Below are positions 53 through 12,404 of a DNA stretch of 13,182 nucleotides, in pieces. The stretch covers positions 2,136,639 through 2,149,820 of the forward strand of contig CM001047.1 of the NCBI GenBank assembly GCA_000183865.1, written 5' to 3'. Made by a program: the position numbers and the translations under genes. The notes below the pieces were generated by a model. The model was not told the DNA's origin. It saw only the letters and a list, made by a program, of their open reading frames with translations, and did no database searches. Numbering within the stretch: position 1 is the stretch's first letter; each line of letters starts with the position of its first letter. Origin of the DNA: Listeria marthii FSL S4-120. Its GTDB lineage: Bacteria > Bacillota > Bacilli > Lactobacillales > Listeriaceae.

Positions 53-754
53 CTAAGGAGCTGTTGCTTTTGATTTTAATCTTCCGCATGGACTTTCATA
101 TCTATTCAACAAAATAAAAGACTTCGAATTTTCTGCTAAAAAACCTGAGTCTATTAATTTTCTGCAAAGGTGTGTAACTGAACGCACGGAAAGGTTAGAA
201 TAGTTAGCAATAATTTTCCGCGTGAAACATTTCGGAATACGAAGCATCCCTTCTTTTTCAACTCCAAAAAAAATTCCCAATTGCTCTAAAGAATCTTTCA
301 AACGACTTTCCCCATTACCACGCATTAGATTGCATTTTTCGATTAGTACATTTTCGTGATTTCGGTTATTAAGATATAAATAGAGCCACCCCTCTTGCAT
401 CCCAATAATCGAGCAAATGATATCCTCTTTATCGAATTCATATGCTGTAATTGTTTCAATGACTCTGGCGGTGTAAACGTTTGCTTCTGCCATAAAGTAA
501 TCATTTAAACCAGCGATTTGGTTGGATCCTAAAAAACTTACTACATTTTTCTTCTTTTCTAATGAAACTATACCTTTTTCAATAAAGTAAACCTTTGCAT
601 TTATTGTATCTTCAGTTAATAAAATCGTGTTGGTTGATATTTTTGTTTTTTTATACGGGATTCTGTTATTGATTAAAGTTTGTAAGAAGCATGTATACCC
701 GAATTCTTCTTCCAAAACTTTTTTACTATACAAATCTTCAAATACCGACTGCAT
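53..754 (-). CDS. Crp/Fnr-family transcriptional regulator
   Basis: This 233-residue protein has the Crp/Fnr layout: an N-terminal beta-roll (about residues 35-115, with a YFIEKGIVSL segment typical of the cyclic-nucleotide-binding fold), a connecting helix, and a C-terminal winged helix (about 178-203, RKIIANYSNLSVRSVTHLCRK). It should bind DNA as a dimer near promoters. The beta-roll lacks an obvious cAMP phosphate-binding RxS signature, as is usual for Listeria paralogues of the PrfA group, so the ligand is unknown. There is no cysteine cluster of the FNR iron-sulphur type. It is divergent from a second Crp/Fnr gene at 1233. The start ATG at 752-754 has only a weak Shine-Dalgarno (GAGATG). 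The family call is firm; the regulon cannot be read from sequence. Confidence 0.85.
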   Translation of the reverse strand: MQSVFEDLYSKKVLEEEFGYTCFLQTLINNRIPYKKTKISTNTILLTEDTINAKVYFIEKGIVSLEKKKNVVSFLGSNQIAGLNDYFMAEANVYTARVIETITAYEFDKEDIICSIIGMQEGWLYLYLNNRNHENVLIEKCNLMRGNGESRLKDSLEQLGIFFGVEKEGMLRIPKCFTRKIIANYSNLSVRSVTHLCRKLIDSGFLAENSKSFILLNRYESPCGRLKSKATAP

Positions 755-9482: not shown

Positions 9483-9956
9483 ATGCAAATTAGACTATCT
9501 AAGCGCGAAGATGCTGCTTCTATGATTGAGTTAGAACATTTAGTTTGGACGCCGGGAACAACACCCGGCAATATCCATTTTGATAGCGAGGCAGACTTTT
9601 TACTTAAATGCCCTCCAGGTTCCAAAATTGTTGTTGCAACTGAGGATAAAGTCGTTGGGATTCTTGGCTACAAGTCCCCTATCCCGCTCTCGTCCAACCA
9701 ACACGTTGTCGAAATTGATATCGCTGTCCATCCTGACTTCCAACGTGCTGGCATTGGTCAGCTTTTAATGGACAAAATGAAAGAAGTAGCGCGTGAAAAA
9801 GGCTATGTTAAAATTGCCTTGCGTGTTCTATCCATTAATAAAAAAGCGATTCACTTTTATGAAAAAAATGGCTTTAAACATGAAGGTTTGCTAGAAAAAG
9901 AATTTATTATTCAAGACGAATATGTCGATGATATTTTAATGGCTTATTTCCTCTGA
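9483..9956 (+). CDS. GNAT-family N-acetyltransferase
   Basis: This 157-residue cytoplasmic acetyltransferase shows the acetyl-CoA pyrophosphate-binding motif A (about 78-92, VHPDFQRAGIG, the Q/RxxGxG/A signature) and the C-terminal motif B region (NKKAIHFYEKNGFKHEG, about 119-135). The sequence resembles the RimI/PhnO-like small-molecule or peptide acetyltransferases but does not fix the acceptor. It starts 16 nt after the permease stop with a weak Shine-Dalgarno, so it is probably co-transcribed with the exporter. No convincing terminator separates it from the sRNA gene downstream, so some read-through is possible. Confidence 0.9.
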   Translation: MQIRLSKREDAASMIELEHLVWTPGTTPGNIHFDSEADFLLKCPPGSKIVVATEDKVVGILGYKSPIPLSSNQHVVEIDIAVHPDFQRAGIGQLLMDKMKEVAREKGYVKIALRVLSINKKAIHFYEKNGFKHEGLLEKEFIIQDEYVDDILMAYFL

Positions 9957-10013: not shown

Positions 10014-10038
10014 GTTTACATTTATTTAGAACGGTTAT
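10014..10038 (+). promoter_or_regulatory. Sigma-B dependent promoter of the sRNA
   Basis: GTTT (10014-10017), a 15-nt spacer, then GGTTAT (10033-10038). This fits the Listeria/Bacillus sigma-B consensus GTTT-N13-15-GGGWAT with one -10 mismatch. Transcription is expected to start near 10045. Confidence 0.8.
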
Positions 10039-10074
10039 ATATAGAGTACAACGAACAAATAAAAGGTGATGCGA

Positions 10075-10101
10075 ATGACAAAAACTTGGTGTACAAGCTG
10101 A
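10075..10101 (+). CDS. Possible eight-codon ORF in the 5' end of the sRNA
   Basis: An AUG at 10075-10077 follows AAAAGGTGAT (10061-10070) by four bases, the spacing of a near-ideal Firmicute ribosome binding site, and starts a short ORF encoding MTKTWCTS, ending at UGA 10099-10101. The stop codon sits in the left arm of a hairpin (AAGCTGA 10095-10101 with TCAGCTT 10110-10116). This could be a translated leader peptide or dual-function element within the sRNA, or chance. At eight codons, coding statistics cannot decide. Confidence 0.35.
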   Translation: MTKTWCTS

Positions 10102-10524
10102 TTTTTTTCTCAGCTTTGTCATATGCCGGCAAAACGTCTGGTGAAGGATTGTAAGTGTCAAAATAGCTATGGTTAGCTGACAGGAGGAAGGCGAGGAGTA
10201 TACGCCGCGTCAAGGACTTTACGCTAGCTTAGTTGTAGGAAGACGGAATTTCGTTACGTCGCTCGTTTATCAATATTTTTATCCTCACTACATTGGTAAA
10301 TAAGCGAATAAAGTATCGTATCATTCATGGCCACTATTTAAGCAAGTTACGGGCGCTCATTTATTCGTAAGTTAGAATATCTTGAGAAGTAAGTAGCAAG
10401 ACAAATAATTCGCCTACTTGTTTGAAAATGCCTCACCGTTTTCCGATTGTTGTATGTTTATTCAGAAACATCCAGACATGGTCCGGCCCATCAGATGAGT
10501 GGCAAGACAAGCTCATCCGAAAAG

Positions 10525-10563
10525 AAAAACCCCGTGTGACGAAATTGTCATACGGGGTTTTTT
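10525..10563. terminator. Strong bidirectional terminator shared by the sRNA and the GntR-type gene
   Basis: The arm 10530-10540 (CCCCGTGTGAC) pairs with 10547-10557 (GTCATACGGGG), with one G-U wobble and a 6-nt loop. It is flanked by A5 (10525-10529) on the left and T6 (10558-10563) on the right. It ends the rightward sRNA. Read leftward it also has a hairpin plus U-tract, and the GntR-type gene's stop codon (10548-10550) is inside the stem. Confidence 0.95.
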
Positions 10564-11213
10564 GATTCTGAAAACAAGATAGAGATATTTTTATCATAAA
10601 ATCTTTGAATGACTAAGTGGCATTTTTCAAATTCTTTTGCTTCTAGATGTGTCACTAATTCTTCTAGCGTTTCTGTCACGTCCATCGTAAAATCTTCAAA
10701 AAGTGGCTTTTCATTCTCATTCTTCATATTTCGCAGCGTTTGGCTAAGAATATCGATATTTTTCTCCATCGCCGGCATTTCAGTATAGTGAATCATACAA
10801 GCATAAAAGTTTTTCACATGATTAATAAATACATCTGTATCTTGTTCCGCAACAGCCAATTTGATATATACTAGCTCTTTACGAAGGCAAGTTGCGCAAA
10901 TTTCTGCGTCTTGTTCTTGTAGTTTTTGTACCGCATAATTCAGATGAAAAAAAGCTAACTTTACTCGTGATTTTTCGCGATGCTGGGCTTCACTATTCAC
11001 TGCAACTGAAAAACCATTTCCTCCGCTGTTTTTGCATAATATACCACTTTTATGTAAACAATGAAGCGCACTAAAAGCTACTCGTTTGCTGACCTGAAAT
11101 CGTTTCATGATGTCGTCTATATTCACTTTCTCGCCACTTTCCAAAGTGTTAGACATTATCTCATTCTTGATTTCTCCATAAATTGGATCTGCAACAAATC
11201 CACTTTTTTCCAT
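10548..11213 (-). CDS. GntR-type (FadR-like) transcriptional regulator
   Basis: A 221-residue protein with an N-terminal winged helix (about 8-72: IYGEIKNEIMSNTLESGEKV, then DIMKRFQVSKRVAFSALHCLHKSGIL) resembling the GntR DNA-binding domain, and an all-helical C-terminal part (about 85-215). That part is similar in layout to an FCD ligand domain, but the usual metal-binding Asp/His pattern is not clear to me, so the effector domain is divergent. I chose ATG 11211-11213, eight bases after AAAGAGG; a TTG further upstream at 11246 would add eleven residues without a ribosome binding site. The stop codon lies in the terminator shared with the sRNA. It is separated from the upstream membrane gene by a terminator, so it is likely transcribed alone. 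Target genes are unknown. Confidence 0.75.
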   Translation of the reverse strand: MEKSGFVADPIYGEIKNEIMSNTLESGEKVNIDDIMKRFQVSKRVAFSALHCLHKSGILCKNSGGNGFSVAVNSEAQHREKSRVKLAFFHLNYAVQKLQEQDAEICATCLRKELVYIKLAVAEQDTDVFINHVKNFYACMIHYTEMPAMEKNIDILSQTLRNMKNENEKPLFEDFTMDVTETLEELVTHLEAKEFEKCHLVIQRFYDKNISILFSESKNPV

Positions 11214-11350
11214 AATTTGAACCTCTTTAAATTTTATTGCTTTCAATGTTATATTTTACACGAAAAAATTCCATTTAGAGATGGCTTTTTGCGAAAAAAT
11301 GTGTCCATTACGTTACAAAATTGATTTCCAGCACATAACATTTCAATATA

Positions 11351-11387: not shown

Positions 11388-12404
11388 CTACTGCAACTCA
11401 ATCGTTAAATCCCCTGTTTTCAAGCGTTCTCTTTTAACAAGAATCGGTCTGACAATAAGTGCAATAACACCTGGCAAGACAACTGCCACCAAAATAAAAG
11501 CAGCAAGTGTGCTGAATCCGTAATTTGCTATTAAATAAAGTGGTGCAACAAAGGCGCATAATCCGAGACCAGCAACTTCACTCGCGGCTTGAATATGAAA
11601 TACCATCACACCAAGAGGTCCAGCGATTAATGTCGTCAGTAACGGCACTAACATCAAACTAGGCTTTCTAATAATATTCGGCGTTTGTAATTTCGGTGTA
11701 CAGATAAGTTGCGCGAAAAACGCACCCCAGTTGTTGTCCCGATAGCTTAATACCGCAAATGATACAAATTGCACCGAGCAACCAATCAACGCCGCAGCAC
11801 TAGCTGTTGGATCAAGTTGAAGCGCAATCGCGAGCGCAGCAGATGAAGCCGGACTAAGTATCAGTAACCCAAACACAAAAGCAATAACCATCGATGAAAT
11901 CAGCGGCGAACCACCAATTAATGAACTAATTCCAAGACTTACAGAAGCTAAAATTGGCGCCATAATCTTTGCAAATAAAATACCGCTCAGTCCGCCTGCT
12001 AAAAGTGCTACGCCAGGAATTAAAATCATATCAAATTTCGTCTTCCCAGTGACTCTTTTCCCAGTCCAAACCGCCACAATAACGGCCAAAATAGCGCCCA
12101 CCGGTTCTCCGCTAGTAATCCCAACGCCACCACCAGCTAAAGTCACTACCGCCCCGCCGCCAATAACAGCAGATGCAGCCGCGCTTATCGTCACAAGCGT
12201 ATTCGCATGCAAGCACATCGCAATACCAACACCAATTCCCGGAATGAGCATCGTTTTACCAATCGCACCAATCGTTACAAGAAATGAAATTCCTGTCATC
12301 TGGCCAATCGTTTGCAACAGAAGCCCAATCCCAAGCGTTACAAGAACTGCATTCGCAATCCCCATAGAAGCCTTATAGGAACGATCTATAAAATATTCTT
12401 TCAT
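11388..12404 (-). CDS. PTS_EIIC_2 family membrane protein (PfoR-like), orphan
   Basis: This 338-residue, strongly hydrophobic protein has about eight to ten membrane segments and long Gly/Ala-rich stretches (for example AAASAVIGGGAVVTLAGGGVG, abbreviated here to its Gly/Ala character, about residues 75-95). The pattern matches the PTS_EIIC_2 family, which includes clostridial PfoR, named as a regulator of perfringolysin O expression but built like a PTS permease. No EIIA or EIIB partner is encoded nearby, so transport by PTS phosphorylation is not evident from context. The start ATG lies five bases after GGGGAG. It follows the LysR gene in the same direction after 71 nt, suggesting co-transcription. 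The substrate and true role are unknown. Confidence 0.75.
   Translation of the reverse strand: MKEYFIDRSYKASMGIANAVLVTLGIGLLLQTIGQMTGISFLVTIGAIGKTMLIPGIGVGIAMCLHANTLVTISAAASAVIGGGAVVTLAGGGVGITSGEPVGAILAVIVAVWTGKRVTGKTKFDMILIPGVALLAGGLSGILFAKIMAPILASVSLGISSLIGGSPLISSMVIAFVFGLLILSPASSAALAIALQLDPTASAAALIGCSVQFVSFAVLSYRDNNWGAFFAQLICTPKLQTPNIIRKPSLMLVPLLTTLIAGPLGVMVFHIQAASEVAGLGLCAFVAPLYLIANYGFSTLAAFILVAVVLPGVIALIVRPILVKRERLKTGDLTIELQ

Follow-up and report, generated by a model that had tools for sequence, protein, structure and literature searches.

Rli47/SbrE of Listeria marthii: an ilvA-complementary loop on a structured RNA found across the genus Listeria

What does the greater part of a long stress RNA do, if the stretch that pairs with its known target is short? 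The question is raised by a locus of Listeria marthii FSL S4-120, analysed here in a window of 13,182 nt (contig CM001047.1). The element is Rli47/SbrE, a known RNA of Listeria that is induced by stress and silences a gene of isoleucine synthesis. Its dependence on sigma-B has been reported for L. monocytogenes and L. innocua (PMC3565269; PMC2813243), and its CU-rich loop is described as binding the Shine-Dalgarno sequence (SD) of ilvA, thereby lowering threonine deaminase (PMC8079631; PMC12596718; PMC3565269; PMC2813243). In stationary L. monocytogenes 10403S, it was among the most abundant transcripts (PMC2813243). The literature nevertheless reports mild phenotypes of mutants and a single established target. 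The initial annotation of this DNA held most of the RNA to be functionally unexplained, fairly so, since the ilvA-pairing stretch takes up only about 13 of its 519 nt. The unexplained part is a conserved structure present across the genus Listeria. In our view, the known ilvA-silencing loop very probably sits on an older structured RNA, for which we infer a second, ilvA-independent role.

The Rli47/SbrE locus of the window

The RNA matches the Rfam model rli47 (RF01478) end to end over positions 10036-10547 (601.7 bits, E 2e-177, gathering score 200), and the source genome, a single contig of 2.88 Mb, holds one copy (Table 1). This alignment over the whole length, together with the ilvA-complementary loop, bears out the assignment to Rli47/SbrE made by the initial annotation, which had suggested the comparison. 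It agrees with the L. monocytogenes RNA in sequence and length, in the type of promoter and the genes on either side, and in its terminator and the loop complementary to ilvA; nothing differs between the two. The proposed body of about 520 nt measures 519 nt (10045-10563) and carries a well-formed SD and a predicted 8-codon frame at its 5' end; it folds at -146.3 kcal/mol (z -3.3), and none of 100 shuffles was equally low. The promoter sequence GTTT-N15-GGTTAT is present exactly as annotated, at 10014-10038. The pattern GTTT-N15-GGNTAT occurs once in the window against 0.19 expected, and since 34 of 200 shuffles also gave at least one match, the motif is weak evidence alone, but it is well placed. 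The terminator, described as very strong, indeed folds at -27.0 kcal/mol (z -8.1, for 10523-10566). A simple terminator scan did not list the hairpin at 10525-10563, probably because the A-U pairs of its stem use up the T run.

Upstream of the RNA lie ABC transporter genes and a GNAT gene (9483-9956, + strand, Pfam Acetyltransf_1); downstream there is a convergent GntR-like gene (10548-11246, - strand), whose stop codon falls within the terminator hairpin, followed by a PTS_EIIC_2 transporter gene. The annotated place between the GNAT and convergent genes and the GNAT assignment both stand, while the GntR type is likely rather than firm, because the Pfam match reaches 23.7 bits against a cut-off of 27. 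Rli47/SbrE has the same position in EGD-e, where its locus is reported as the lmo2141/lmo2142 interval (PMC2813243). Five records labelled "Listeria phage" (OR848260, OR846919, OR848212, OR846931, OR846862) carry this chromosomal region at 95-99% identity and probably contain host DNA.

Table 1. Features of the Rli47/SbrE locus, in coordinates of the window.
Feature	Position	Strand	Basis
Sigma-B-type promoter GTTT-N15-GGTTAT, GTTTACATTTATTTAGAACGGTTAT	10014-10038	+	one match; similar elements before copies in other clades
Rli47/SbrE transcript	10045-10563	+	start estimated from promoter; RF01478 match; fold z -3.3
SD AGGTGAT (10064-10070) and predicted 8-codon frame MTKTWCTS (10075-10101)	10064-10101	+	SD and start in 33/34 copies
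Hairpin P2	10095-10116	+	compensatory swaps at two pairs among 25 genomes
P1 5' strand, long-range helix (GCCGG..GUCUGGUG)	10125-10143	+	beats shuffles in 14/14 representatives
GAGGAAG box and hairpin P6	10184-10206	+	GGC/GCC in 25; GACC or GGCC with GGUC in 9
P7 5' strand, long-range helix (GGAAGACGG)	10238-10246	+	covaries between clades; 0/5000 permutations
Hairpin P8; 17-nt loop (10275-10291) with AUCCUCACUAC (10281-10291), complement of ilvA ribosome-binding site	10261-10305	+	sequence complementarity
P7 3' strand (CCGUUUUCC)	10436-10444	+	covariation between clades
Hairpin P3 (AUGUUU/AAACAU)	10454-10471	+	in 25 first-group genomes only; no compensatory changes
P1 3' strand (CCAGAC..CCGGC)	10472-10487	+	pairing with P1 5' strand
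Hairpin P4	10494-10517	+	seventh pair varies; first six without two-sided change
Intrinsic (Rho-independent) terminator, into which the convergent gene extends	10525-10563	+	-27.0 kcal/mol, z -8.1 (fold of 10523-10566)

The loop segment AUCCUCACUAC (10281-10291) is an exact 11-nt complement of the ilvA start region and ribosome-binding site of the same genome, in which TAGTGAGGATG occurs a single time, at ilvA. The best predicted duplex between loop and ilvA has 13 pairs, at -21.1 kcal/mol. In the mechanism that we propose, sigma-B would transcribe Rli47/SbrE as an RNA of about 519 nt ending at its own terminator. Under stress, the P8 loop would pair with the ilvA ribosome-binding site, through 11 consecutive Watson-Crick pairs or the 13 of the best predicted duplex. 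This duplex would block ribosome entry and lower threonine deaminase, and isoleucine synthesis and growth would in turn be restrained. The silencing step is reported as demonstrated by others in L. monocytogenes; for the present genome it is supported by sequence alone. The rest of the RNA forms a structured core, composed of P2, P1, the GAGGAAG box with P6, P7 and P4, throughout Listeria.

Diverged copies in all Listeria genomes examined

The window RNA is 90.0-98.7% identical to that of 14 other genomes, L. cossartiae being the closest; the 15 genomes called sensu stricto here were grouped by this identity and by the known names of three. Syntenic copies were found in all 34 Listeria genomes, including all 19 non-stricto ones examined. 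Seventeen of the latter are L. ilorinensis, costaricensis, goaensis, fleischmannii, floridensis, valentina, aquatica, kieliensis, grayi, riparia, cornellensis, booriae, rocourtiae, newyorkensis, grandensis, rustica and portnoyi, species that we take to belong to Listeria sensu lato. Identity to the window RNA, measured for four of these copies, is 61.5% in ilorinensis, 55.1% in goaensis, 50.5% in riparia and 39.7% in grayi. At all 19 loci the RNA converges on an orthologue (72-79% identical) of the window gene at 11388-12404, and at eight second-group loci the upstream neighbours, an ABC permease and a GNAT gene, are also those of the window. Nine first-group non-stricto genomes (L016-L024) have no GntR-like gene beside the RNA; there, the GNAT neighbour is replaced by a gene for a siderophore-binding-protein-like lipoprotein, which is split between frames in L. 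aquatica (L023).

None of the 19 diverged copies reaches the Rfam gathering score, and two of them (L040 and L041) are unmatched by the model at E 0.5. In the genus group of 25 genomes, RF01478 matched 24: fifteen scored above the gathering score, and nine fell short of it at E 1e-11 to 4e-35. In the family sample (36 genomes) it also matched eight of the nine second-group genomes, at E 4e-6 to 1e-10. The two genomes that it misses, L. grayi (G009) and G035, nonetheless have the RNA beside the transporter gene. All 34 copies were recovered by a profile of the 5' core trained on 15 of them (R2), the weakest at E 4e-11. Beyond Listeria, the order sample comprises 261 genomes, of which two belong to the same family; neither R2 nor RF01478 found a copy in them, under strict filters that weak relatives may escape. 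One weak RF01478 match (E 0.002) in a second genus of the family (G025) lies at another locus and was taken as chance. A 3'-core model trained on ten copies (R1) gave five weak matches among the 398 genomes of a class sample; these were discounted, as the three examined lack the box and the CRGRC..CCGG motif. Matches to other known RNA families all stayed below threshold, whether in the window, at five diverged loci or in L040 and L041; near the G035 locus, such a match to Ref64, an Enterococcus sRNA family, was seen at 411-479 (+ strand) of L040 (37.4 vs 44.3 bits, E 2e-4).

These genus-wide copies contradict a 2025 paper (PMC12596718) in which rli47 is described, with reference to Marinho 2019, as 'notably absent' from sensu lato species, and they undercut the host role that is argued there from this absence. 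Literature searches, with most subscription papers outside their coverage, returned no report of sensu lato copies or of the leader frame. For L. weihenstephanensis, published RNA-seq reports 10 long non-coding RNAs. The SD with its short frame and the genus-wide P1/P7 core are not among the features given in the consulted descriptions of Rli47/SbrE (RF01478). A structural model would be better founded on the 34 copies than the present Rfam model is; as they include natural loop-less and target-less copies, they also provide material for testing the function of the long core.

Structured core and leader frame

Side-by-side reading of the copies gives the order P2, P1 (which closes the core), GAGGAAG box with P6, P7, P8, P3, P4 and terminator. 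Pairing of P1 and P7 was tested in 14 of the 34 sequences, and unconstrained folds were calculated for 18. P7 is the strongest case of covariation, its strands being complementary in each clade despite sequence change: GGAAGACGG/CCGUUUUCC in the window, UAGGAUGCGA/UCGCAUUCUA in genome G021, CUUUGAGA/UCUCAAAG in L. valentina, GUAGAAAGUAG/CUACUUUCUAC in L. grayi and GGAAUACG/CGUAUUCC in L. riparia. With long windows, true P7 pairs could not be told from swapped ones (-14.3 vs -13.3 kcal/mol). When the best uninterrupted helix was sought between windows set by anchors, the sum over one sequence per clade (eight clades) was -114.5 against a permuted mean of -87.7, and none of the 5000 permutations was as low; shuffles within single species gave p ≤0.05 in 6 of 14. 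P1 pairs better than shuffles in every representative, and swapped strands often pair equally well, because the P1 strands are so alike. The unconstrained folds contain P7 (at least 6 pairs) in 15 of 18 cases and all five tested P1 pairs in 13 of 18; for the window core, P7 is present and P1 absent (mean probability 0.58).

The seventh pair of P4 is U-G in 17 copies, C-G in four, U-A in three and A-U in one, a count that is less certain because the pair was placed by text pattern. In a ten-sequence alignment, no two-sided change was seen anywhere in P3 or in the first six pairs of P4. Two further ideas about the core were rejected. Pairing of the CCUC loop with the internal GAGGAAG box would couple these elements, and they are not coupled, because the box is unchanged in species that have lost the loop. 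A second start site after the mid-RNA AGGAGG was dropped as well, its ATG being missing in sensu stricto and others.

At the 5' end, a promoter-like element is followed by an SD and a start codon in 33 of the 34 copies, the exception being L. grayi. The frame thus opened has 8 codons in the 15 sensu stricto genomes; nine other genomes have 12-20 codons, eight have 39, and L. grandensis has 43. The frames of 39-43 codons are conserved after the promoter-like element in nine second-group genomes (L031-L038, L040). Since their start codon lies far upstream of P1, about 310-330 nt before its strand, the second-group unit resembles a small mRNA whose 3' portion is structured. No known protein family matches the longer frame, and the sole database match of the 43-codon L. 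grandensis frame is itself, annotated as a hypothetical protein. The 39-codon frame resembles a CsbD-type stress protein by eye; this candidate was abandoned, as neither Pfam nor NCBIfam gave a weighty match and comparison with the CsbD of the same genome gave no meaningful one. The pN/pS ratio is 0.63 in frame vs 0.85 and 0.77 out of frame, as calculated from eight of the nine frames, which are mutually similar (that of L. grandensis, with its shifted end, was left out). Protein-level selection on the leader frame is thus weakly indicated at best, and its translation stays hypothetical.

The RNA could accordingly be seen as a sigma-B-controlled messenger for a small protein or leader peptide, whose structured 3' part became, or always was, the regulator, and whose frame either was reduced to 8 codons in the sensu stricto lineage or regulates through its own translation. 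We regard this as a serious possibility whose chances lie somewhat below even. SgrS and RNAIII are bifunctional RNAs of this kind, in which a base-pairing RNA likewise carries a short frame with an SD; by comparison, the Rli47 frame is putative and its peptide is not conserved between clades. The recurrence of promoter-like element, SD and start codon ahead of frames of 8-43 codons and the database entry of the L. grandensis frame speak for a messenger, as does the reported recovery of Rli47 with SecA2, a protein that associates with translating ribosomes (PMC9736482). On the other hand, the peptides fit no protein family, the pN/pS difference is weak and comes from eight similar sequences, L. 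grayi lacks the frame, and in sensu stricto the codons overlap structure, the last of them and the stop lying within the P2 5' strand.

Returning to an older RNA that bears the ilvA loop, we infer that its origin was messenger-like. Tentatively, and with a little less than half of our confidence, Rli47 might be the sensu stricto branch of an ancient genus-wide sigma-B stress messenger, made of promoter, SD, small frame and a large core whose function would not depend on ilvA and would be kept even where that gene has gone. The ilvA loop would then be a detachable part, tuned in sensu stricto and lost elsewhere, and the frame would have shrunk to 8 codons. If this is true, the published idea that rli47 marks host-associated Listeria is wrong.

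The ilvA loop and the role of the core

The CCUCA motif of the P8 region is present in 26 of 34 copies (15/15 sensu stricto, 2/2 ilorinensis/costaricensis, 9/9 second group, 0/8 others). In 13 of the 15 sensu stricto genomes, no stretch of the RNA core has a longer complement in the ilvA start region than the P8 loop, and shuffle p is ≤0.02 in 10 of 15. Outside this group the complement is not above chance, with p <0.05 in one of 16 genomes, L. portnoyi, which owes it to an A/U run and not to CCUCAC. Control of ilvA is therefore firmly indicated only in sensu stricto, and the loop may have other targets elsewhere. The matching GUGAGG occurs in the ilvA start region of 14/15 sensu stricto, 7/9 second-group and 0/7 other ilvA-bearing genomes. 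A Fisher test of loop against GUGAGG in ilvA (21/26 vs 0/5, p 0.0015) was not taken as proof, because it ignores relatedness and the complement exceeds chance in sensu stricto only.

The threonine deaminase domain (PF00585) was found in 33 of 36 family genomes and had no match in L. aquatica (89% complete), L. kieliensis and L. valentina (99%), that is, genomes G001, G014 and G023. When the complete IlvA protein served as query, nothing closer than remote paralogues turned up in these three (27-28% identical, 48-51 bits). They have neither an ilvA orthologue nor the loop, yet the RNA is retained; in total eight species are loop-less, three of them also without ilvA. This survival of the core argues that it would do more than hold the ilvA loop, and the persistence of copies in the three species without ilvA suggests that most of the Rli47 length probably serves a role older than ilvA silencing.

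Alternatively, the core could be a mere stabilising scaffold for an SD-blocking loop with several targets, another part of the RNA having taken over pairing in loop-less species. LhrC of Listeria and RsaE are short SD-blocking sRNAs whose C/U-rich single-stranded loops likewise pair with Shine-Dalgarno sequences; they are much shorter, whereas in Rli47 the loop accounts for little of a large structured molecule. A scaffold would account for a CCUCA loop more widespread than its ilvA complement and would agree with further targets, such as tsaE, reported as predicted for the same loop (PMC12596718). It is rather unlikely, given that eight species retain the core without the loop and that conservation of the GAGGAAG box, P1 and P2 exceeds that of the P8 loop. 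A main role in cis, in which the convergent gene would share the terminator and be under antisense control, is very improbable: in the window the convergent gene ends within the terminator, and a convergent gene also faces the RNA at the 19 non-stricto loci, but the partner varies (in sensu stricto it is the GntR-like gene, elsewhere the transporter gene directly), the overlap in the window is limited to the terminator, and action in trans on ilvA has been reported.

The loop was likely, if not provably, lost two or three times. In the ilvA tree (31 rows), L. grayi is placed next to sensu stricto, and G021 next to ilorinensis/costaricensis; the transporter tree (21 rows), which contains no sensu stricto genomes, puts L. 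grayi next to the second group and gives G021 no resolved position. L. riparia and L. cornellensis were left out of the ilvA tree. In the assemblies, ilvA of L. cornellensis (G028:C22:49855) contains an in-frame stop and that of L. riparia (G032:C13:18130-18409) is split between frames, reflecting either decay or sequencing error.
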